Shown here: piece after piece, positions 1-46,996 of the stretch
How positions within the stretch are numbered: position 1 is the stretch's first letter
Layout: the number at the start of each line of letters is the position of its first letter
Origin: a virus
Length of the DNA: 56,304 nt
IMG/VR virus record: IMGVR_UViG_3300006922_000026
Location: 1 to 56,304 of that record
Reading direction: 5' to 3' (one strand)
Program-made: the position numbers and the translations under genes
The notes under the pieces: generated by a model
Seen by the model: only the letters and a program-made list of their open reading frames with translations
Database searches by the model: none
Told to the model about the DNA's origin: nothing

Positions 1-766
1 CCGCCCAATCCTTTTCCTGATCTGTTGCGTTTGCAGATAGTTTAGGTGGGTTAAGTACTTCGTTAAGTTCGTTGATTTCAGGCAAGTAACACTCTTTTAA
101 TTTTCTTGCATGAGCCTGTGTTACTTTAAATTCATAAAAATGTTTTTTAAAGTCAAAGCCTTTAGGGTTAAACTTCAAAGGATCATCAGACCATTCATCT
201 AACCAACCTTGTGGCTTCTCGTCCATTATACACATCTGTGCCCATATACGTTCTTGTATAGTAGGCTGGTGTGCTTTTTTCTTTTTTTCTATTTCTGCTT
301 TTGCTTCTGCTTCTTCAGTGGCAAATGCTTGTGCTTTGAATTGTAGTTCTCCAAGCCAAACGTCAATGCTAACATTCATTGGTTTAGGAGTACCCATTGT
401 GCCTGGTAAACTTTCCCAATACTTATTGTATTCTTCATTGATGTTAGGTTTACCTAACTGTAACATTCTACACATTGCACCGAGTGTACTGTTAAAGCGA
501 TTCTCAGGAACCTTTTTAAAACTATCTACATGCTGTCGCCACTTATCGCTCTTGTCCATGTATTCAAGAGTCCAACGTTTAAAGTCTGCTCCTTTACATT
601 CCAGTCGATAGTAGTCTAATGCTTTGTTTGTTCTTCTGCCGAAGTTCTCTGGAGTACAGTCCTTTAGTTCTTCTTCCGTCCACAACACCTCACCTGTAAC
701 ACTCTTTTGTCGACGAACAGGTTTCTTCCTTCTCGATGTTTTTCCTTTTAGGGCGGTCAATGCCAT
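1..766 (-). CDS. Conserved phage protein, C-terminus cut by window edge
   Basis: An open frame runs from ATG at 766 leftwards off the window without a stop, giving at least 255 residues. The start follows a GAGGAG ribosome site and the promoter at 792-819. The protein begins with a lysine/arginine-rich stretch (MALTALKGKTSRRKKPVRR), continues with tryptophan- and charge-rich soluble sequence, and has a highly charged Glu/Lys helix near residues 165-180. No signal peptide or membrane segment is visible. I do not recognise the family. The basic N-terminus could bind nucleic acid or a virion component, but that is a guess. Confidence 0.8.
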   Translation of the reverse strand, partial: MALTALKGKTSRRKKPVRRQKSVTGEVLWTEEELKDCTPENFGRRTNKALDYYRLECKGADFKRWTLEYMDKSDKWRQHVDSFKKVPENRFNSTLGAMCRMLQLGKPNINEEYNKYWESLPGTMGTPKPMNVSIDVWLGELQFKAQAFATEEAEAKAEIEKKKKAHQPTIQERIWAQMCIMDEKPQGWLDEWSDDPLKFNPKGFDFKKHFYEFKVTQAHARKLKECYLPEINELNEVLNPPKLSANATDQEKDWA

Positions 767-5365: not shown

Positions 5366-5557
5366 TTACTTGTTATCATGGTTAATCGATATATGTTTCA
5401 AAACTTTACCAGAATTTGGTCCAGTTGTAACAGTATACCCAGTCGTACCATTTCCATACACGTTTACTTCGCTACGAGTTTTCATAAGGATTTTCTCCTT
5501 GCGTTCTCTCATTTTTTGCTCACGGTATGATTTAAGTAGGTAATCGTATCTGTTCAT
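5366..5557 (-). CDS. Small basic hypothetical protein (63 aa)
   Basis: ATG with GGAGAG upstream. The N-terminal half is a basic helix (KSYREQKMRERKEKILMKTR); the C-terminal half is glycine/threonine-rich with beta-like character (GNGTTGYTVTTGPNSGKV). It follows iscU on the same strand after a short GC-rich structured spacer (5575-5636). Family unknown. The lysine/arginine content would allow RNA or DNA binding. Confidence 0.6.
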   Translation of the reverse strand: MNRYDYLLKSYREQKMRERKEKILMKTRSEVNVYGNGTTGYTVTTGPNSGKVLKHISINHDNK

Positions 5558-5574: not shown

Positions 5575-5636
5575 AGTTAAGTGCGTTCCTTCGGCTTTGC
5601 GCCTACTTCCGGCCTTTTTTCGGCTGAACGTTGTAT
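5575..5636 (-). other. GC-rich structured spacer after iscU
   Basis: This short stretch is far richer in G and C than its surroundings. On the minus strand an outer CGTTC/GAACG stem can close around two small hairpins, GCC(GAAAAAA)GGC and GGC(GCAAA)GCC, like a compact three-way junction. It ends just before the ribosome site of the 63-residue gene. It could be a processing or leader element; there is no clean U-tract for a terminator. Confidence 0.4.
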
Positions 5637-9197: not shown

Positions 9198-10165
9198 AGT
9201 ATGCTACCAGAGTTGTTTTGTTTTACTTCTTGTACGAATTGGTCTGGACTTGGTTCGTAATACTTTTCATCATACTCTTTAGGCTTATCAACAAAGTCTG
9301 TGTGTGGGTTGCCACACAATACAAATGGACCTTTTTGAATATCTAACTTAATGCCTAATGTTTTATCCTTAGGTATATGAAATCCTAATTGACACCAATG
9401 ATTAAAGTTATCACTGCCACGTCCTGGATTGTTGTTTACAAATTCTGTATCTTCACTGTATGCCTTCCAATGGAATACCATAAAGTTGTGTCCTTCTGGT
9501 CTTGGAACTTCCATGATAAATCTTAGGTCGTCTTCTTTAGGATAGTTCTTTAGATCAAGACTAAACATAAGTGTTTCATTGTCTACAGGATGATCGTCAA
9601 TACGTGTAGGACGTAATCCTGGTAATGGATATAGCATACCCATCTTTAGGTTAACAGGAAACTGTTCAATGTAACGTTTTTCTTTTTCAACTTCTTCTAA
9701 GAACAATGTACTTTGATACAGGTTAATCTTATCTGGAATAGCAACGCAACCTTGTTGTCTTGCAATCAAGTCGCTATAGATACGTGTAAAGTTTCTTTCA
9801 ATACCAATGTCGCCAAGTGTTTCACTAATAACTAAATCAAAGTAATTTGATGGAGCCTCGTTAACATCTGCGATTATTCTATAGTTTGTAACGTTGTTTA
9901 GTTTGCATAGTTCTTCAATGGTTCCATGTAAACTTGTTTGGTTCTCACAGAACCATACTTCTTTTGCACCCTGTAATGACGCATAGATACCAAGCAATCC
10001 TGTGCCTGCTCCAAAGTCAATTACAGTTTTACCTTCTGCATGTTTTTTAATTCTACTAAAGAAACCTTGACAACGTGCATGATCTTTAATCATACACATA
10101 TGACTGGCATGATCAGCAAACTCGTGATCAAATAAAGCAAAGGTATGGTCGCAAAATTTATCCAC
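9185..10165 (-). CDS. SAM-dependent methyltransferase, protein-arginine-methyltransferase-like
   Basis: Motif [16 protein letters not shown] (48-62) binds SAM, Glu74 lies at the end of the next strand (VWFCEN), and SETLGDIG (114-121) resembles the double-E loop region of PRMTs. A beta-rich C-terminal half (130-326) matches the PRMT barrel in position and size. The target is unknown; it could be a ribosomal or RNA-binding host protein. The start is GTG at 10165, overlapping the ClpP stop (GTGGATAA) with no clear ribosome site, so translation likely depends on termination of clpP. Confidence 0.75.
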
Positions 10166-10745
10166 GATTAGCGATTACCGTATCTGCAAGTCCGTAATCA
10201 ACTGCTTCTTGGGCACTCATAAAGTTATCTCTATCCATGTCTGCTTCAAGTGTAGCATAATCTTTGCCTGTGTGCTTTTCATACAGTTTAGTCAATGTTT
10301 CTTTCCAATACTGTAATTCTTTGTATTGAATCTCAACATCACTTGCTTGTCCTTGTGTTCCACCTAATGGTTGGTGTATCATGTGTCTTGCATGTGGTAA
10401 GATTTTACGTTTGCCTGGCTCACCTGCCATTGCAAGGAAACTTCCCATACTTGCCGCTTGACCCATTACAATAGTATTCACTGGCGAATTGATAAACTGC
10501 ATTGTGTCATAGATAGACATACCTGCGGTTACACTACCACCTGGACTATTAATATAAAAGTTAATTGGTTTCTTTGGATTTTCACTTTCCAAGAAAAGCA
10601 TTTGTGATACAATTAAACTTGCAGACGTACTGTTTACATCTGTGTCTAACATTATAATACGATCTTTTAGTAGACGACTGTAAATATCATAACTACGTTC
10701 GCCACGTTGTTCTTTCTCAATTACTACTGGTACTAAATTAGGCAT
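10158..10745 (-). CDS. clpP: ATP-dependent Clp protease proteolytic subunit ClpP (copy 1)
   Basis: Serine peptidase that forms the chamber served by ClpX/ClpA. In 195 residues from the ATG at 10745 (which follows AAGGAGGGG) the triad is Ser99 (MGQAASMGS), His124 (HMIHQPLGG) and Asp173 ([11 protein letters not shown]). Glycine-rich INSPGGSV (65-72) forms the oxyanion region. It is a full-length, canonical ClpP close to bacterial housekeeping versions; the longer frame to 10835 is an artefact. The phage also encodes a divergent ClpP at 14392, ClpS at 28975 and a tmRNA, and must borrow the host unfoldase. Confidence 0.95.
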
Positions 10746-10977
10746 ATCGCCCCTCCTTCGTTCTGTATACTTCTTTCGGGCCTGGTGTTGTAAACTCATA
10801 GCCAAATGCGTTACCAATGTATATACTTCTACCATTCCATTTCATATGGATTTTATTTGTAGCCATAAACACATTCATCGATTCTTTTTCTCTAAAGTTG
10901 TCTACTTCTGCTTCAACTACTTTATCGTTATCTGTACAAGTTACCATACAAGTCTTTTCGTAAACACTATTCGCCAT
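10738..10977 (-). CDS. Hypothetical protein upstream of clpP (79 aa)
   Basis: ATG with AAGGAT upstream, ending 8 bases into clpP, whose ribosome site lies in its last codons. The protein is polar with a [10 protein letters not shown] stretch near the start and a [18 protein letters not shown] beta-rich centre. Small homologues seem usual in T4-like marine phages, but I cannot name a function. The overlap implies stoichiometric coupling to ClpP. Confidence 0.65.
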
Positions 10978-11694: not shown

Positions 11695-12419
11695 ACTTTA
11701 TTCCTTTTTATAATCTTTAATACTTTTTGACGCATACGTGCATTGTCAAAGTATTCATATGCTTTATGTAAAGGTGTAGGTGGAAGTTGATTCTTTAGTG
11801 TAATACAAGAGTTAATAGGACTATGAAAGCCTAACTGATCTAACTCATGCGAGTCAAACTCAACAAGATTAATTTTTTCATCTGTGTTGAACTTAACATA
11901 CATTAAAGGATCTCCTTCATTAATGCTAATACGTGTTGCATCAGGTTTCTTTTGGAACAATGGGCGTACACCTGGACGAAACCATCTGCCAATATCATAA
12001 CTGCCACACAATGGATTAACTGATTCTGTATATCCGTTGTTGTGATAATACGGTGGTAAGTTTGTAGCCATTAATGGCTTGTCTGCAAAAAATATGTAAC
12101 CAAAGCCAAGTTGGTGAATACCGTTCTTGCCTTGTGGGTCTCCAAAGAATATTGCTCCGAACTCTGGATCTTGTCTGTGTATTTTTAGTTGACCGTTATC
12201 GTTGTATTCAAGTTCAACTGTTACAGGAGATTTGATAACAACTGTTTTAGTCATCTCTTCTACCATACCAGGACAATGCAATAATGATGGTCCAAGCCAT
12301 TCTTTGTAATCTATGTTCTTGTGTAAGAACTCCGGCTCTTGAAATCGTAGTGGACTAATGAAATGTCTTTCACCACTACCTGGAGCAATCGCTCTTGTCC
12401 AATATACATTAACGGTCAT
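11691..12419 (-). CDS. Conserved marine-phage protein, function unknown (242 aa)
   Basis: The ATG overlaps the oxygenase gene by 11 bases and its stop overlaps the acetyltransferase start by 4. The protein is beta-rich with many aromatic and proline residues (SPLRFQEPEFL, FGYIFFADKPLMATNLPPYY, RISINEGDPLMYVKF). The pattern recalls cupin-type jelly rolls, and a shared operon with a 2OG oxygenase fits, but I see no clear HxH/HxD iron site. The last 25 residues are basic. Function unassigned. Confidence 0.6.
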   Translation of the reverse strand: MTVNVYWTRAIAPGSGERHFISPLRFQEPEFLHKNIDYKEWLGPSLLHCPGMVEEMTKTVVIKSPVTVELEYNDNGQLKIHRQDPEFGAIFFGDPQGKNGIHQLGFGYIFFADKPLMATNLPPYYHNNGYTESVNPLCGSYDIGRWFRPGVRPLFQKKPDATRISINEGDPLMYVKFNTDEKINLVEFDSHELDQLGFHSPINSCITLKNQLPPTPLHKAYEYFDNARMRQKVLKIIKRNKV

Positions 12420-13176
12420 AATCGTTAAACCACATTTTATAAGGTTGCCCTTGTTTGCTGTCTTTTCTTACAAAGCCAAACTGACCAATGTTGAAACTTA
12501 ATGTAACTCTTTCAACATCACTCTTGAAAGGATATACTGCATGTCGCATAGCACCTGGAAAGAAAATACAATCACCTGTTGTTGGTGTATAGTTTATTCC
12601 ACTGCTCTGCCATATGTCATCAATCAAACCACCAGTGAATGTAATGTCGCCTGGTACTGGTTGATTAGTATATTCTTTTGCCTTGTCTTTTTCTTCTTTA
12701 ATTACTTCAGGTATATCAATATACAAACTTGCACTAATTAAACTGTTAGGGTGTGTATGCATTGGATTAAACTCACCTGCTTTAGTTACGTTAACCCAAG
12801 GATAACCTAATAGTTCTATTGCAAGATCATGTTCGTCCTCTGATGGCATTTCATCAAGATTGCTTACTTGTAGTCCACTGCGAATATAATTGTTACAGTG
12901 TTCTGCCATTATGGTGATAAACCTGTTTTGTTCTTCTGGAGTTCCTATACTTTTTAAGTCGTACTGTCCAGCAATGTTGCCACTTAGGCTTTGACCCATT
13001 GGATCGCTCTTAGCCTGTGCTTCTTTAGATAGTTTTTGTAAAAACGCTAAATCGTCATCTGTGAACTTTCCAATATAGAGGCTTGGTCCAAAAGGTTTAC
13101 GTATTTCGTATCCTTTAGATTCCTCAGTCCAACCGTGACCGTTATACTTAAATTGTCTATCTATTGTTTTCGGCAA
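12409..13176 (-). CDS. 2OG-Fe(II) oxygenase (TIGR02466-like), overlapping bS21 gene
   Basis: A putative 2-oxoglutarate/Fe(II) hydroxylase. The core reads NPMHTHPNSLISASLYIDIP (iron-binding His pair), then ITFTGGL, DCIFFPGAMRHAVYPF (distal His) and RVTLSFNIGQFGF with the 2OG-binding Arg. No ATG is available near the start; I choose TTG at 13176, with AAGGA 9 bases upstream, a 20-base overlap with the bS21 gene. GTG at 13236 is an alternative with an 80-base overlap. Expression is therefore tied to bS21. Substrate unknown; a ribosomal protein is an attractive guess given the repeat of this arrangement at 31600-32461. Confidence 0.8.
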   Translation of the reverse strand: MPKTIDRQFKYNGHGWTEESKGYEIRKPFGPSLYIGKFTDDDLAFLQKLSKEAQAKSDPMGQSLSGNIAGQYDLKSIGTPEEQNRFITIMAEHCNNYIRSGLQVSNLDEMPSEDEHDLAIELLGYPWVNVTKAGEFNPMHTHPNSLISASLYIDIPEVIKEEKDKAKEYTNQPVPGDITFTGGLIDDIWQSSGINYTPTTGDCIFFPGAMRHAVYPFKSDVERVTLSFNIGQFGFVRKDSKQGQPYKMWFNDYDR

Positions 13177-13354
13177 TTCTTTGTTCCTTCTTACGTCTTG
13201 CAATACCACGCTTCTTTGCTTCACGTCTTTTTTCACTTGGCTTCATGTAGTGTTGTCTTTCTCTTAACTCTTCCATGATTCCGTTTTTCTTCATTTTACG
13301 TTTCATAAGCCTTAGGGCCTTTTCAACGTTGTTATTTCTTACGATTATTTCCAT
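13157..13354 (-). CDS. rpsU: Ribosomal protein bS21 (copy 1)
   Basis: bS21 sits on the 30S platform next to the anti-Shine-Dalgarno of 16S rRNA and affects mRNA choice. The 65-residue product matches the family: EIIVRNNNVEKALRLMKRKM, then GIMEELRERQHYMKPSEKRR and a basic helical tail. ATG at 13354 with AAGGAG. Phage bS21 genes are known from marine viruses and may replace the host copy to favour phage messages. The gene overlaps the 2OG oxygenase downstream; a second, diverged copy lies at 32222. Confidence 0.93.
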   Translation of the reverse strand: MEIIVRNNNVEKALRLMKRKMKKNGIMEELRERQHYMKPSEKRREAKKRGIARRKKEQRIAENNR

Positions 13355-29909: not shown

Positions 29910-31022
29910 TTATGCGTTGTATTGATTGAACACTTGATTAACCTGTTGTGTACATCTTACGAATGTTGTACACTTAGGCATATCTTTAATGCGTTTTGCT
30001 CCAATGTAAGTACAAGTAGATCGTAAACCACCAAGTATTTCTGTTAGTGTACCTTCTACTTCTCCTTTGTAAGGAATAGAAACAAGTTTGCCTTCAGCAC
30101 CCCTGTATCCATCTTTACGTGTACCATGTGTCGCCATGGCCGCGTCTGAGCTCATTCCGTAGAACTCAACAAAACTCTGTTCAGCAAAGTGCGGAACATA
30201 AGTTCCATTGTCTAACTTATGAGCACCTCCTGTTGATGTGTGTTTTGTAATAATGTTACCACCACCTTCTTTGTGTCCTGCTAACATACCGCCAAGCATA
30301 ACAAAGTGAGCACCTGCTCCAAAGGCTTTACTTACATCTCCTGGATACACACAACCGCCATCAGCAATAATGTGTCCACCAATACCATTGGCCGCATCAG
30401 CACATTCAATAATGCCTGATAGTTGCGGTACACCAACACCTGTCATTAGTCGTGTAGTACATACTGATCCTGGACCAATACCACACTTGACAATGTCAGC
30501 ACCTTTGATAATAAGTTCTTCTGTCATCTCTGCTGAAATAACATTACCAGCAATAATAGTTTTGTCTGGGTATGCGTCTCTAACTCTTGCAATAAAGTCT
30601 GCATAGTTTTCGTGATAAGCATTTGCAACATCAATAGTAATAAACTTGATGTCTGGATACATTTCTAATACTGCTTTCATAGTAGCATAGTCTTTTGCAT
30701 CTTTATCCCAAATAACTCCTGTACCTGTGCAAACACTTAGGTACTTCATCTTTACACCTGCACTGTGTTCTTTCCAGTCATCTACTGAATAGTGCTTTCG
30801 CATTACAGTAATCATTTTATGTTCTTGCAGGACCTTCGCCATCTCGAATGTACCAACACCGTCCATGTTACTTGACATGATCGGTACTCCAGTCCATTCA
30901 TTACCATAATGAAACTTGATCGTTCGAGTCAAGTCAACGTCACGCCTGCTTTCTAATTTAGACCGTTTAGGCTTAAACAGTACGTCTTTGTAATCTAACT
31001 TAACATCTTGTTCGATTCTCAT
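29910..31022 (-). CDS. guaC: GMP reductase
   Basis: Converts GMP to IMP with NADPH, joining guanine and adenine nucleotide pools. IMPDH/GMPR barrel signatures: LDYKDVLFKPKRS at the N-terminus, VPIMSSNMDGVGT (47-58), catalytic Cys188 in GIGPGSVCTTR, IADGGCVYPGDVSKAFGAGA and the mobile GYRGAEGKL region. 370 residues, slightly longer than bacterial GuaC, no CBS domains, which favours GMPR over IMPDH. It likely adjusts purine pools for phage DNA synthesis alongside NrdAB. The ATG overlaps the upstream gene by 4 bases. Confidence 0.9.
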   Translation of the reverse strand: MRIEQDVKLDYKDVLFKPKRSKLESRRDVDLTRTIKFHYGNEWTGVPIMSSNMDGVGTFEMAKVLQEHKMITVMRKHYSVDDWKEHSAGVKMKYLSVCTGTGVIWDKDAKDYATMKAVLEMYPDIKFITIDVANAYHENYADFIARVRDAYPDKTIIAGNVISAEMTEELIIKGADIVKCGIGPGSVCTTRLMTGVGVPQLSGIIECADAANGIGGHIIADGGCVYPGDVSKAFGAGAHFVMLGGMLAGHKEGGGNIITKHTSTGGAHKLDNGTYVPHFAEQSFVEFYGMSSDAAMATHGTRKDGYRGAEGKLVSIPYKGEVEGTLTEILGGLRSTCTYIGAKRIKDMPKCTTFVRCTQQVNQVFNQYNA

Positions 31023-31603
31023 TGTGTAATTGCTCCATAATTGAATGACAGGCTCACCCTATCAAGGTTGTGTTTATTAATCTTAACTGCGTGAGATTGC
31101 CAACCTGGAAATACAATGATATCATTCTCTTGTGGTTGTACAGTAAGTCTTGTTCCTACTATAGGATTGTAGTCTGCATTAGTCGGTACGTAATAGTCTG
31201 CATCATCGTCACGTACAAATTCAATGCCACCACTGTCGGTGTCTGGTGTTTTTAAGTATAAGTTTCCTACAAGCAAAGCATTCCTATGCTTGTGTAAATT
31301 ATTGTATGCTCCAGTTGGATTTACATTGAGCCAGTAATTAAGTAAACTTACCATAGGTAGTCCTAATTCTTTTGCAATGTCGTTTACCATGTTATCAAGA
31401 AACTGTTGTAACCTTACTCCATGGGGCAATGGAAACGCTATACTCATTTCTTCTTCGTTATCAAATGTTTGAAATCCATTACAATCATTTAGTTTACCTA
31501 CTGCATATTTCTCGTATGCCATTTCTATAAGCCAAGACGTATCTATGCTGTCAGGCAATGTATTCTGCCACATTGGCGTTTCAAATAGATTTACTTTTTT
31601 CAT
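31019..31603 (-). CDS. 2OG-Fe(II) oxygenase (TIGR02466-like)
   Basis: Starts KKVNLFETPMWQNTLPD and has the family core LNYWLNVNPTGAYNNLHKHR with the first iron-binding His pair, ALLVGNLYLKTPD, IIVFPGWQSHAV (distal His) and RVSLSFNYG with the 2OG-binding Arg. 194 residues. It overlaps both the neighbouring oxygenase and guaC by 4 bases. Substrate unknown. Placed two genes after the second bS21, so it belongs to the bS21/oxygenase group. Confidence 0.82.
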   Translation of the reverse strand: MKKVNLFETPMWQNTLPDSIDTSWLIEMAYEKYAVGKLNDCNGFQTFDNEEEMSIAFPLPHGVRLQQFLDNMVNDIAKELGLPMVSLLNYWLNVNPTGAYNNLHKHRNALLVGNLYLKTPDTDSGGIEFVRDDDADYYVPTNADYNPIVGTRLTVQPQENDIIVFPGWQSHAVKINKHNLDRVSLSFNYGAITQ

Positions 31604-32232
31604 TCTGATAACTGTGGCATTCTTGGTTGCCCTGGACCATAATTAAAACTAATACTGTAACGTTCGCTTTTGCTCATGTTACTACATACACTATGTTTAA
31701 GCCAACTTGGAAATAATAATAGCAAGTTGTCTTTAGGTGCATAACTACCTTTTTGACTTGTAAAGTGATTGTATCTATCAAGGGGTGGAATAAAATGAAT
31801 TGCACTATCTTCTCTGTGGAATTCAATATTACCCATCTTGTCTGGATCAATAACATTTGTATATACTACACCACTGATCAAACTTCCTTGATGGTCGTGT
31901 AGCATGTTATGATCTTTGTGACCATTAATATTAAACCACATATTGTTTAAGTGTAGTTGCGGAAATCCTGCTTGTGTAACTGCAACACCTACTGCTTCAT
32001 CTAACTGTGTTTTAAACTTTTTTAGTTCCCATGGAGTACTCTGCTCTTGGAACTCTGGCCATTCAATTGAGCGACTTTGCCAACCACCTGAGTTACTTAC
32101 ACTTTCACCTTCTGGGTCTGCATGTCTTAATTGATCTGAGTATTGTTTAAGCCAGGCAATGTCTGCACCTAAGTCTAATGTTGCCCAGACAATACTTGGG
32201 AACCATAAATCTGCGTTTAGTTTAATAGCCAT
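31600..32232 (-). CDS. 2OG-Fe(II) oxygenase (TIGR02466-like), overlapping second bS21
   Basis: I use ATG 32232 (MAIKLNADLWFPSIVWATLD). Core motifs: LNNMWFNINGHKDHNMLHDH, GSLISGVVYTN, LLLFPSWLKHSV and RYSISFNYGPG. 210 residues, a paralogue of the 31019 product and relative of the 12409 one. It overlaps the bS21 gene by 11 bases, repeating the arrangement at 12409-13354. A protein hydroxylase acting on a ribosomal component is the hypothesis this order suggests; small-molecule substrates are not excluded. Confidence 0.82.
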   Translation of the reverse strand: MAIKLNADLWFPSIVWATLDLGADIAWLKQYSDQLRHADPEGESVSNSGGWQSRSIEWPEFQEQSTPWELKKFKTQLDEAVGVAVTQAGFPQLHLNNMWFNINGHKDHNMLHDHQGSLISGVVYTNVIDPDKMGNIEFHREDSAIHFIPPLDRYNHFTSQKGSYAPKDNLLLLFPSWLKHSVCSNMSKSERYSISFNYGPGQPRMPQLSE

Positions 32233-32461
32233 AATCTTCTTTTCGTTTTGCAATCTTCTTAAGATGTCTGGCTCTACCTGCCGCTTTTGCCATCTTACGT
32301 TTCTCGCTCGGCTTTGTATAAGCCTGTTTATCTTTTAGTGTTAGTAGTACACCGTCATCGTTAACTTTACGTTTGAATCTACGCAAGGCACCATTCATGT
32401 CGCCATTCCTAACTTCAACGTGTAGTCCCTTATATTTCTTCTCGCCTTTGTCATACTTCAA
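32222..32461 (-). CDS. rpsU: Ribosomal protein bS21 (copy 2, diverged)
   Basis: 79 residues with the bS21 pattern after a short N-terminal extension: GLHVEVRNGDMNGALRRFKR, then GVLLTLKDKQAYTKPSEKRK and a basic tail. It differs from copy 1 throughout, so the two are old paralogues or separate acquisitions. The start is TTG at 32461 with AAGGAG 8 bases upstream, overlapping the preceding gene by 11 bases. A promoter inside that gene (32520-32549) can drive it. It may favour translation of a different mRNA set than copy 1. Confidence 0.88.
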   Translation of the reverse strand: MKYDKGEKKYKGLHVEVRNGDMNGALRRFKRKVNDDGVLLTLKDKQAYTKPSEKRKMAKAAGRARHLKKIAKRKEDYGY

Positions 32462-37131: not shown

Positions 37132-37160
37132 AATGTAACATATTATTTGGTGTTTGTCAA
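37132..37160 (-). promoter_or_regulatory. sigma70-like promoter
   Basis: TTGACA, 17 bases, TACATT on the minus strand; the -35 overlaps the stop codon of the 37157 gene. Drives the 37100 gene and lysin. Confidence 0.6.
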
Positions 37161-37729
37161 CGATTAATGAAGTAGAATTGGTTAAGACTAAAACGACCTT
37201 TACCAATTACTTTGGTTACTTCGTGTTGTTCAAAACTTGGAAATAGGATAGTTGTATTGTTATCCATATGCGGAGAGTAATCATACTCTGTGAACTTTAG
37301 TTCACCTCCGGTAAATTCTTTTGGTGTTTTCCAAAATGTAGTTACTGCACTAATTGTTGCATGGTCGGCATGATGTGCATATGAACTACCATCTGGATAA
37401 TAATTGAGTTGTGTTAGATCATCGTTAGTCATGTCCAAATATTTCATGAATGGATTTTCTACCATATTCTGCTTTTTGAGTTCATCTGTAATGCTGTAAA
37501 TTAGTCTGTTTGCTTGAAGTATATGACTTTTAGTTCTGTCTTCTTGGTAAAAGTTATCCAAATTCAAACCAAGCATTCCACTACTACGTGGATCACCTGT
37601 CGTTGTTTTATCTGCAAGGATAGGACTTAATTCATTAAGTTCATTCCAAATTAAACTTTCATCACGTGGCGAATAGTAATCATAGATGATCGTATGATTA
37701 AAAGGTGCGGTCAGATTTATTATTCTCAT
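37157..37729 (-). CDS. 2OG-Fe(II) oxygenase, prolyl-hydroxylase-like
   Basis: A complete iron site is visible: LNYYPDGSSYAHHADHATIS gives His120-x-Asp122, ILFPSFEQHEVTKV gives His169, and GKGRFSLNQFYF gives Arg179 for 2-oxoglutarate. 190 residues, the size of PhyH/P4H-type phage hydroxylases. Possible substrates: protein side chains or a nucleobase. The promoter -10 lies only 6 bases before the ATG and there is no ribosome site, so the message is probably leaderless. It is followed by the 155-residue protein. Confidence 0.85.
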   Translation of the reverse strand: MRIINLTAPFNHTIIYDYYSPRDESLIWNELNELSPILADKTTTGDPRSSGMLGLNLDNFYQEDRTKSHILQANRLIYSITDELKKQNMVENPFMKYLDMTNDDLTQLNYYPDGSSYAHHADHATISAVTTFWKTPKEFTGGELKFTEYDYSPHMDNNTTILFPSFEQHEVTKVIGKGRFSLNQFYFINR

Positions 37730-37771: not shown

Positions 37772-37845
37772 TGGCAGGAGACCAAGGAATTGAACCCTGT
37801 CTTACTGGGTTGGAGCCAGTCGTGCTACCGTAACACTTGTCTCCT
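37772..37845 (-). tRNA. tRNA-Trp (anticodon CCA), 3' CCA encoded
   Basis: Minus-strand cloverleaf: acceptor AGGAGAC/GTCTCCT, D stem GTGT/GCAC, anticodon stem ACTGG/CCAGT with loop CTCCAAC (CCA, reading UGG), T stem CAGGG/CCTTG with loop TTCAATT, discriminator G and genomic CCA. It lies about 6 bases after the tmRNA 3' end and is probably processed from the same transcript. Confidence 0.93.
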
Positions 37846-37849
37846 TAAA

Positions 37850-38114
37850 GTGCAACTTTTCTGTTGCCAGGTAAGTTGCCAACCCCGTCACATAGTTAGA
37901 CTATGCGGCAAGAGCAAAGTTTTCGTTTGCGTCTATAGTTTTGCTTGATTTACGGTCATCGCCTACCGGTAACTCCACGTTCTCTCTTACACCTGTCGAT
38001 CCTATTTCGCCCCCATCATAAGCACACTAATTAATGTGTGCTTAATGTGTTTATGGTGGAGGCGTCGGGTATCGCACCCGAGTCCAGTTTGCAGTTGATT
38101 GGCTTCAACGTTAC
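37850..38114 (-). ncRNA. ssrA: Circularly permuted (two-piece) tmRNA
   Basis: tmRNA frees stalled ribosomes and tags the nascent peptide. On the minus strand the acceptor part comes first: a T arm (TCGGG/CCCGA), CGCCTCC and ACCA ending at 38054. A spacer with an 8-bp hairpin (AAGCACAC/GTGTGCTT) follows, then the coding part from 38014: GGGGGCG pairs with CGCCTCC, then AAATAGGATCGACAGG. The tag frame (resume GCA at 37930, stop 37903-37901) reads ANENFALAA. An H-type pseudoknot (GCAACTT/AAGTTGC) near 37852 ends it. The order is that of alphaproteobacterial ssrA; the T loop reads TGCGATA. Confidence 0.9.
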
Positions 38115-38120
38115 AATACT

Positions 38121-38149
38121 ATTTAAACATCTTTAGTTGAAGATGTCAA
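38121..38149 (-). promoter_or_regulatory. Promoter of the tmRNA and tRNA-Trp
   Basis: TTGACA, 17 bases, TTAAAT on the minus strand, inside the last codons of the 38133 gene. Predicted 5' end near 38114, matching the acceptor piece. Confidence 0.65.
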
Positions 38150-46438: not shown

Positions 46439-46996
46439 TTATCTCCTATTATATTCTATATCGTAAACGACAGTACGTCTGATACTGTCTGTAGGATACA
46501 CTCCGTGCCACACTCTTCCATCAAGGCAAACTACTCCGCCTTCAACACTTGGAAAATGATTTGGGTGTTGGTATCCATCTGGTTCTGGCATTATTGTAAA
46601 TAGCATTCCGTTAAACTTGTTCTTTGTATTATGTAAAATTGGAACATCATCTAAATGTACAACGGCACTAAAAGTATTTTTCTTCAAGTCACCTTGGTGT
46701 ACATGAAGTCCTTGGTATCCACCTTTTTGATAATAGATGATCCAAGACTCAATAAGTTTAAAATCAGTAAAGTCTTTGAATGCAAGTTGTTGCTCAAGCC
46801 AATCAAAAAATCTTTGTTGTATTCTTTGGTAGTCTTGATTATCTTTTGGTATGTAGATTTGCTCGCCGTCTACTGTTGTCGTGCCAGTGCTTTCATCATC
46901 TGCAATGATGTTATCAAATAGAGTTTCAAACTCTTTATATTGAGGATAACGTGAATGCCATATCCACTGATCTGCGACTTCTTTATAGTTTTCCAT
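46439..46996 (-). CDS. 2OG-Fe(II) oxygenase-like protein
   Basis: Iron-site pattern GGYQGLHVHQGDLKKNTFSA and later GGVVCLDGRVWHGVYPTD, SIRRTVVYDIEY with the 2OG-type Arg. 185 residues; double-stranded beta-helix of the phage hydroxylase type. It is first gene of a unit with the RecB-like nuclease, behind a consensus promoter that carries a perfect 8-bp inverted repeat over its -10 region (47011-47031), so it seems to be specifically controlled. Substrate unknown; DNA-base or protein hydroxylation are both possible. Confidence 0.75.
   Translation of the reverse strand: MENYKEVADQWIWHSRYPQYKEFETLFDNIIADDESTGTTTVDGEQIYIPKDNQDYQRIQQRFFDWLEQQLAFKDFTDFKLIESWIIYYQKGGYQGLHVHQGDLKKNTFSAVVHLDDVPILHNTKNKFNGMLFTIMPEPDGYQHPNHFPSVEGGVVCLDGRVWHGVYPTDSIRRTVVYDIEYNRR

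Follow-up and report, generated by a model that had tools for sequence, protein, structure and literature searches.

Can a marine phage keep trans-translation running in its host with a tmRNA of its own? This question is raised by a locus on the minus strand of a 56,304-base viral contig (IMG/VR record IMGVR_UViG_3300006922_000026; this whole stretch is called the window below), which an earlier note, made from the sequence alone, had read as a phage-encoded, circularly permuted two-piece tmRNA gene. In this study, we found that the locus has a promoter and is built in two pieces, that its tag ends in ALAA, and that acceptor stem and T loop are under selection. On these grounds it very probably encodes an alpha-type permuted tmRNA that is functional, in a marine myophage of the Melnitz/HTVC008M type, and that would replace or boost host trans-translation during infection.

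Anatomy of the locus and its relatives

A complete circularly permuted tmRNA occupies positions 38114-37849 on the minus strand. The earlier note had named a search with the Rfam alpha-tmRNA model as the test of its reading; the locus matches the whole RF01849 alpha_tmRNA model with 129.5 bits (E 4.4e-35) against a gathering cut-off of 50, and RF04321 tmRNA_permuted with 125.6 bits against 47, both far above the cut-offs. ARAGORN, run on the window, made no call at this locus, and the detection is by covariance models only. The features of the locus are as follows.

38120..38149, minus strand: promoter, TTGACA (38149-38144), 16 nt, TTTAAATA (38127-38120), equivalently TTGACA-17-TTAAAT; conserved in relatives
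38054..38114, minus strand: acceptor (tRNA-like 3') piece; RF01849 and RF04321, parsed
38076-38070, minus strand: T loop TGCGATA, in the parsed acceptor piece
38056-38054, minus strand: CCA of the acceptor piece, encoded
38053-38015, minus strand: intervening spacer of 39 nt, a predicted hairpin without ORF; sequence parse
38014-37849, minus strand: coding (mRNA-like) piece, first bases GGGGGCG; RF01849/RF04321, parsed
37930-37901, minus strand: tag frame ANENFALAA with stop TAG (GCA AAC GAA AAC TTT GCT CTT GCC GCA TAG)
37772..37845, minus strand: tRNA-Trp (CCA), directly downstream of the tmRNA; sequence search

As the earlier note had described, the acceptor piece lies upstream of the coding piece on the same strand, with the intervening segment between them. 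Its 3' part reads GGAC-TCGGG-TGCGATA-CCCGA-CGCCTCC-ACCA and ends at 38054, and the spacer that follows is predicted to fold into a hairpin of -12.8 kcal/mol. The two pieces pair in the proposed 7-bp acceptor stem (GGGGGCG/CGCCTCC), with G3·U70 and discriminator A, and the tag frame, which reads ANENFALAA as proposed, has an Ala resume codon, a hydrophobic AA end, and a stop codon. The tmRNA of L097, an independent viral contig, is identical to that of the window, including the promoter, and those of L014 and L328 are 94% and 88% identical; thus, the tmRNA is no assembly artefact. The tRNA-Trp also adjoins the tmRNA in L326, L327, L097, and L014.

The description of the phage as T4-like was borne out, as its closest named relatives are T4-like Kyanoviridae. 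The CHASE2-adenylate cyclase of the window is 71.6% identical to that of Methylophilales phage Melnitz and 48% to that of Pelagibacter phage HTVC008M, for the FecR/curlin-region protein the identity is about 55% to both phages, and for the ribonucleotide reductase about 70% to cyanomyophages. A curlin-repeat protein is also encoded. These identities place the phage in the Melnitz/HTVC008M/Mosig group of marine T4-like myophages (Kyanoviridae). With regard to the T4-like core set, the window is a 56-kb fragment only, in which the ribonucleotide reductase and late-like boxes (NATAAATA) are present. The same 56 kb encodes five 2OG-Fe(II) oxygenase-type proteins (12409-13236, 31019-31603, 31600-32253, 37157-37729, and 46439-46996; minus strand).

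The gene is not a new kind of tmRNA, since two-piece tmRNA genes of the Melnitz group were published in 2022: PMC9004378 describes the two-piece ssrA of Melnitz and reports two-piece ssrA in 17 of 47 related contigs and 53 two-piece tmRNAs among 18,146 phage genomes. What the present analysis adds is the covariation in the T loop, the composite promoter, the separation of the tmRNA from a riboswitch, and a putative gene slot in the spacers of relatives. Melnitz (MZ577097) belongs to the same phage group and has an alpha-type permuted tmRNA (RF01849, 106.7 bits) with the promoter layout TTGACA-17-TATAAATA. However, its tag is ANDNYVPVDYALAA and its T loop GGCAGTA (ANENFALAA and TGCGATA in the window), its spacer has 142 nt with a small ORF (39 nt without ORF in the window), a riboswitch lies directly downstream of its tmRNA (32 kb away in the window), and, unlike in Melnitz, the tmRNA of the window is directly followed by tRNA-Trp. 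Pelagibacter phage Mosig EXVC030M (MT647606), in which SsrA is annotated, likewise has a Kyanoviridae pelagiphage tmRNA (RF01849, 67.6 bits), but it shows only 72% identity to that of the window over the alignable part, has another tag, and is followed by a late-transcription accessory gene.

The permuted ssrA of alphaproteobacteria and SAR11 (RF01849) shares with the window the gene order, G3·U70, GGAC, the encoded CCA, and the tag type ANxN...AA. These cellular genes score higher (175-298 bits against 129.5), except for a truncated SAR11 copy (71.7 bits), and the SAR11 spacers are only 4-13 nt long; tags and coding piece also differ. The tmRNAs of mycobacteriophages Bxz1 and Wildcat and of Bacillus phage G are one-piece and not permuted. 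They are like that of the window in being phage-encoded (PMC4131195).

When the matches of the window tmRNA are ranked by score, the best 40 are all viral (70-100% identity), and the best SAR11 match has 69% identity over the query. A quick maximum-likelihood tree, which has many weak forks, separates 55 cellular alpha and SAR11 tmRNAs from 77 viral ones at a branch of 99.3, and groups the window with L014 and L328 (97), then with L326 and L327. A clade of SAR11 and the window is not rejected by the AU test (p = 0.158).

Selection on the stem, the T loop, and the tag

tmRNAs were collected by covariance model from 35 related viral contigs and from SAR11 genomes, and by pattern from viral contigs and bacterial genomes; the parser for tmRNA parts accepts the TTTGAC form found in SAR11 as well. 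It left three loci of SAR11 and six of the phage group unparsed, among the latter a partial match (L337), two loci below the cut-off (L338 and L339), and a different stretch of Melnitz (L003), and the Mosig locus (L002/L005) was not picked up by the parser. A tmRNA scoring over the cut-off is present in 14 of the 35 related contigs. As no tmRNA was seen in over half of these contigs, many of which are fragments, the gene is not essential to the group. L337 (G019:30668-30770) is a tmRNA-like match of 43 bits in which the parser found no tag frame, and is possibly a degraded copy.

All 279 parsed tmRNAs, cellular and viral, have G3·U70 and discriminator A. In the phage group, the pairs beside G3·U70 vary with compensation, giving six versions of the acceptor stem: GGGGGCG/CGCCTCC, GGGGGTG/CACCTCC, GGGGCAG/CTGCTCC, GGGCCTG/CAGGTCC, GGGGCTG/CAGCTCC, and GGGGATG/CATCTCC. 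Positions 54 and 58 of the T loop also vary together. In the covariance-model set of the phage group they are G·G in 11 and U·A in 5 tmRNAs, never mixed, and in a viral set collected with a search pattern allowing mixed forms they are G·G in 77 and U·A in 8, again never mixed; these counts leave out later pattern sets, whose patterns fix the positions concerned. From this we infer that bases 54 and 58 touch in the folded T loop. Sequence comparison thus shows that acceptor stem and T loop are under selection across related phages. In nearly all relatives, the last three residues of the tag are LAA or IAA.

The earlier note had regarded the T loop TGCGATA as an oddity, taking TTC as normal, and had proposed a comparison of tag and T loop with SAR11 ssrA. 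The tags do differ: ANDNRLAIAA, ANDNRLALAA, and ANDNELALAA in SAR11, and ANENFALAA in the window, whose host may be SAR11, OM43, or another bacterium. The T loop, on the other hand, proved not to be odd. In SAR11 it is GGCGGTA at 46 and GGCAGTA at 4 of 50 loci, nearly all of them found by the model, and it is GGCGGTA in all 117 alpha cells of a set which was itself chosen by pattern. Since the cellular alpha-type loop is GGCGGTA, TTC is not the norm of this family, and TGCGATA is no defect.

Alpha-type permuted tmRNAs with tags of their own also occur in many more viral contigs (L038, L105, L017, L043, L046, L066, L010, L036, L052, L077, L098, L019, L030, and L078), several of which have a 29-residue tag, ANDNALSNVTFVDFSAPVTAVNEDFALAA.

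Promoter, riboswitch, and spacer

The promoter read in the earlier note is present and conserved in relatives. In most relatives it has the form TTGACA-17-TATAAATA, in which the -35 box is sigma-70-like and the -10 position is taken by a box identical to the T4-type late promoter box. The perfect composite occurs once each in the Melnitz, G001, and G008 sequences, always at the tmRNA. In the window and L328 the promoter is a weaker variant, TTGACA-16-TTTAAATA; the -10 box of the window is weaker than that of the relatives. Elsewhere in the window, early-like sites (TTGACN-16..18-TATAMT, n=10) and late-like boxes (NATAAATA, n=19) are separate. We infer that the tmRNA is transcribed early by the host polymerase, and transcription by the phage-modified polymerase may possibly occur late at the same promoter. 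Thus, of the early-type control previously proposed, the sigma-70-like TTGACA box stands, but 'early' is only half the story, because the promoter of the relatives carries a perfect T4-type late box. Such a composite promoter would keep up the supply of tmRNA throughout infection in this group.

In PMC9004378, the tmRNA of Melnitz is described as controlled by a glutamine riboswitch, and phages are said there to use the riboswitch or tmRNA, rarely both. The window carries both, 32 kb apart and in different gene regions, with the riboswitch at the following position.

5580..5632, minus strand: glutamine riboswitch, just upstream of a 63-aa ORF (5366-5557); sequence search

The proximity in Melnitz, where the riboswitch match begins only 8 nt past the tmRNA match, speaks for such control, as does the published statement itself. 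However, the Melnitz riboswitch comes after the tmRNA, and elsewhere the two are far apart (19 kb in Mosig and about 12.6 kb in G001, besides the 32 kb in the window); moreover, in both the window and G001 the riboswitch precedes the same 63-aa ORF. Taken together, these positions leave very little probability for control of the tmRNA by the riboswitch. We conclude from its location that the riboswitch belongs to the small downstream gene and not to the tmRNA, and, judged by gene order, the published control does not generalise. A single transcript holding riboswitch and tmRNA does not fit the window, given the distance of 32 kb and the place of the riboswitch upstream of the 63-aa ORF. The product of this ORF is small and basic, and is nearly identical in G001.

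The 39-nt spacer of the window contains no ORF, being too short for one. Spacers are 4-13 nt long in SAR11 and 4-71 nt in the other alpha cells parsed, but phage-group spacers can be as long as 361 nt, and those of other viral contigs 464 nt. Of the viral spacers with 30 nt or more, 79% have a terminal stem of 7 bp or longer, as compared to 2% of shuffles. We call a spacer filled if an ATG ORF begins within its first 45 nt and takes up 70% or more of its length. By this definition, 44 of the 62 distinct viral spacers with 110 nt or more are filled, against 2.7 expected from mononucleotide shuffles. The ORFs have about 29-112 codons, fall into many unrelated families, and often follow a GGAG-like site that resembles a ribosome-binding site; some stop where the coding piece begins or shortly before it, and others extend into it by 13, 42, or more nt. 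The pooled pN/pS of eleven homologous pairs is 0.33, with all ten informative pairs below 0.5, and by this measure the spacer ORFs look like real genes. ORF-bearing spacers include those of L004/L340 (Melnitz), L261, L265, L274, L329, L331, L332, L336, L439, L475, L639, and L070, and the Melnitz isolates carry one spacer ORF, MFKWLSKTRLVVITRDYFRERNRKADAKIPKYLSG...

A PHROGs search with seven spacer ORF products recognised none of them, and tblastn with one product found it in Melnitz isolates only, under their SsrA feature. No discussion of a spacer ORF is contained in the searched passages of PMC9004378, and a literature search for permuted tmRNAs with ORFs in the intervening segment returned nothing relevant; small genes in tmRNA spacers are apparently undescribed. 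The 62-aa spacer ORF of G004 (L331) ends in ...YICKPVGSMSL, and a Melnitz gene (L004) just upstream of the tmRNA promoter reads ...SYICKPVGSIA, a likeness read by eye; it looks as if a neighbouring gene had moved into the spacer of G004.

We favour, with some reserve, a viral lineage of permuted tmRNAs in which the excised spacer serves as a gene slot, represented in many marine phages including the Melnitz isolates, and of which the window would be a short member with an empty slot. If this is true, one precursor transcript would give rise to both a two-piece tmRNA and a mini-mRNA, and some of the ORFs would take their C-terminus and stop codon from bases of the tmRNA coding piece.

Partners and role during infection

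SmpB (PF01668) had no match in the window, which is a fragment, or in the complete Mosig and Melnitz genomes, with positive control genomes; therefore, the tmRNA must use the SmpB of the host, as well as its alanyl-tRNA synthetase and EF-Tu. The window encodes two ClpP-like proteins.

10158..10835, minus strand: ClpP-type protease with intact Ser and His active-site motifs, not linked to the tmRNA; 270 bits to PF00574
14392..14958, minus strand: second, divergent ClpP-like protein; sequence search

Both kinds are also found in G001, G004, and G008. ClpP as an obligate partner of the tmRNA is ruled out, as Mosig and Melnitz have the tmRNA and lack ClpP. Since the phage encodes ClpP-type genes, a phage-supplied protease is possible, and it may consume tagged proteins. 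A tag ending in LAA is of the type read by ClpX.

In the scheme we propose, a single transcript would start at the promoter and cover the tmRNA together with at least part of tRNA-Trp. The hairpin spacer would be removed by tRNA-processing enzymes of the host, leaving two pieces held together by acceptor-stem pairing, and the host alanyl-tRNA synthetase would charge the RNA with alanine via G3·U70. Host SmpB and EF-Tu would then bring it to ribosomes that have stalled because their mRNA is cut or incomplete, and the nascent chain would receive ANENFALAA and be degraded by a Clp-type protease, the host ClpXP and perhaps the phage ClpP. The most likely benefit would be that ribosomes continue to be recycled at a time when mRNA is being cut by nucleases and the host tmRNA loses its source through breakdown of the host chromosome.

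Other roles are conceivable, and each is less likely than replacement or boosting of host trans-translation. The tag might send stalled products to a fate chosen by the phage, such as the ClpP of the phage, and host proteins would thereby be recycled into amino acids. The two ClpP-like genes and the difference of ANENFALAA from the SAR11 tags fit this idea, and recycling has been raised for Melnitz in PMC9004378; we nevertheless regard it as unlikely, because the ClpX-read LAA end is the same as in cells and because the tmRNA is retained in Mosig and Melnitz without ClpP. It is highly unlikely that the RNA is a decoy which binds host SmpB or stalled ribosomes and thereby inhibits host trans-translation. 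A precedent exists in the DS6A type of mycobacteriophage tmRNA, which consists of the tRNA-like domain only and inhibits tmRNA (cited in PMC4131195 and PMC11915505), and no SmpB of the phage itself was found, but tag frame, stop codon, G3·U70, and pairing between the pieces are all kept, and a decoy would not need a tag ending in LAA.

A non-functional passenger, captured from a host and playing no role in infection, might be suspected from the absence of the gene in many relatives, some of them fragments. Compensated changes in the stem, covariation in the T loop, intact tags, and the conserved promoter across divergent phages, however, indicate selection and largely refute this reading, which we find scarcely credible. 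Replacement or boosting of host trans-translation is thus the role we retain.

The features which evolution keeps in these phages are the alanine identity pair, the 54/58 pair of the T loop, and the LAA-type end of the tag, and also a promoter that in relatives looks readable both early and late. The tmRNA is now separated from the glutamine riboswitch which had been linked to it in print. The spacer genes, if expressed, would be an unusual packing of a gene into a by-product of RNA processing, and the Melnitz-OM43 isolate system allows a direct test of them. With a phage-borne tmRNA, ribosome rescue joins the contest between phage and host in bacteria which are among the most abundant in the ocean.
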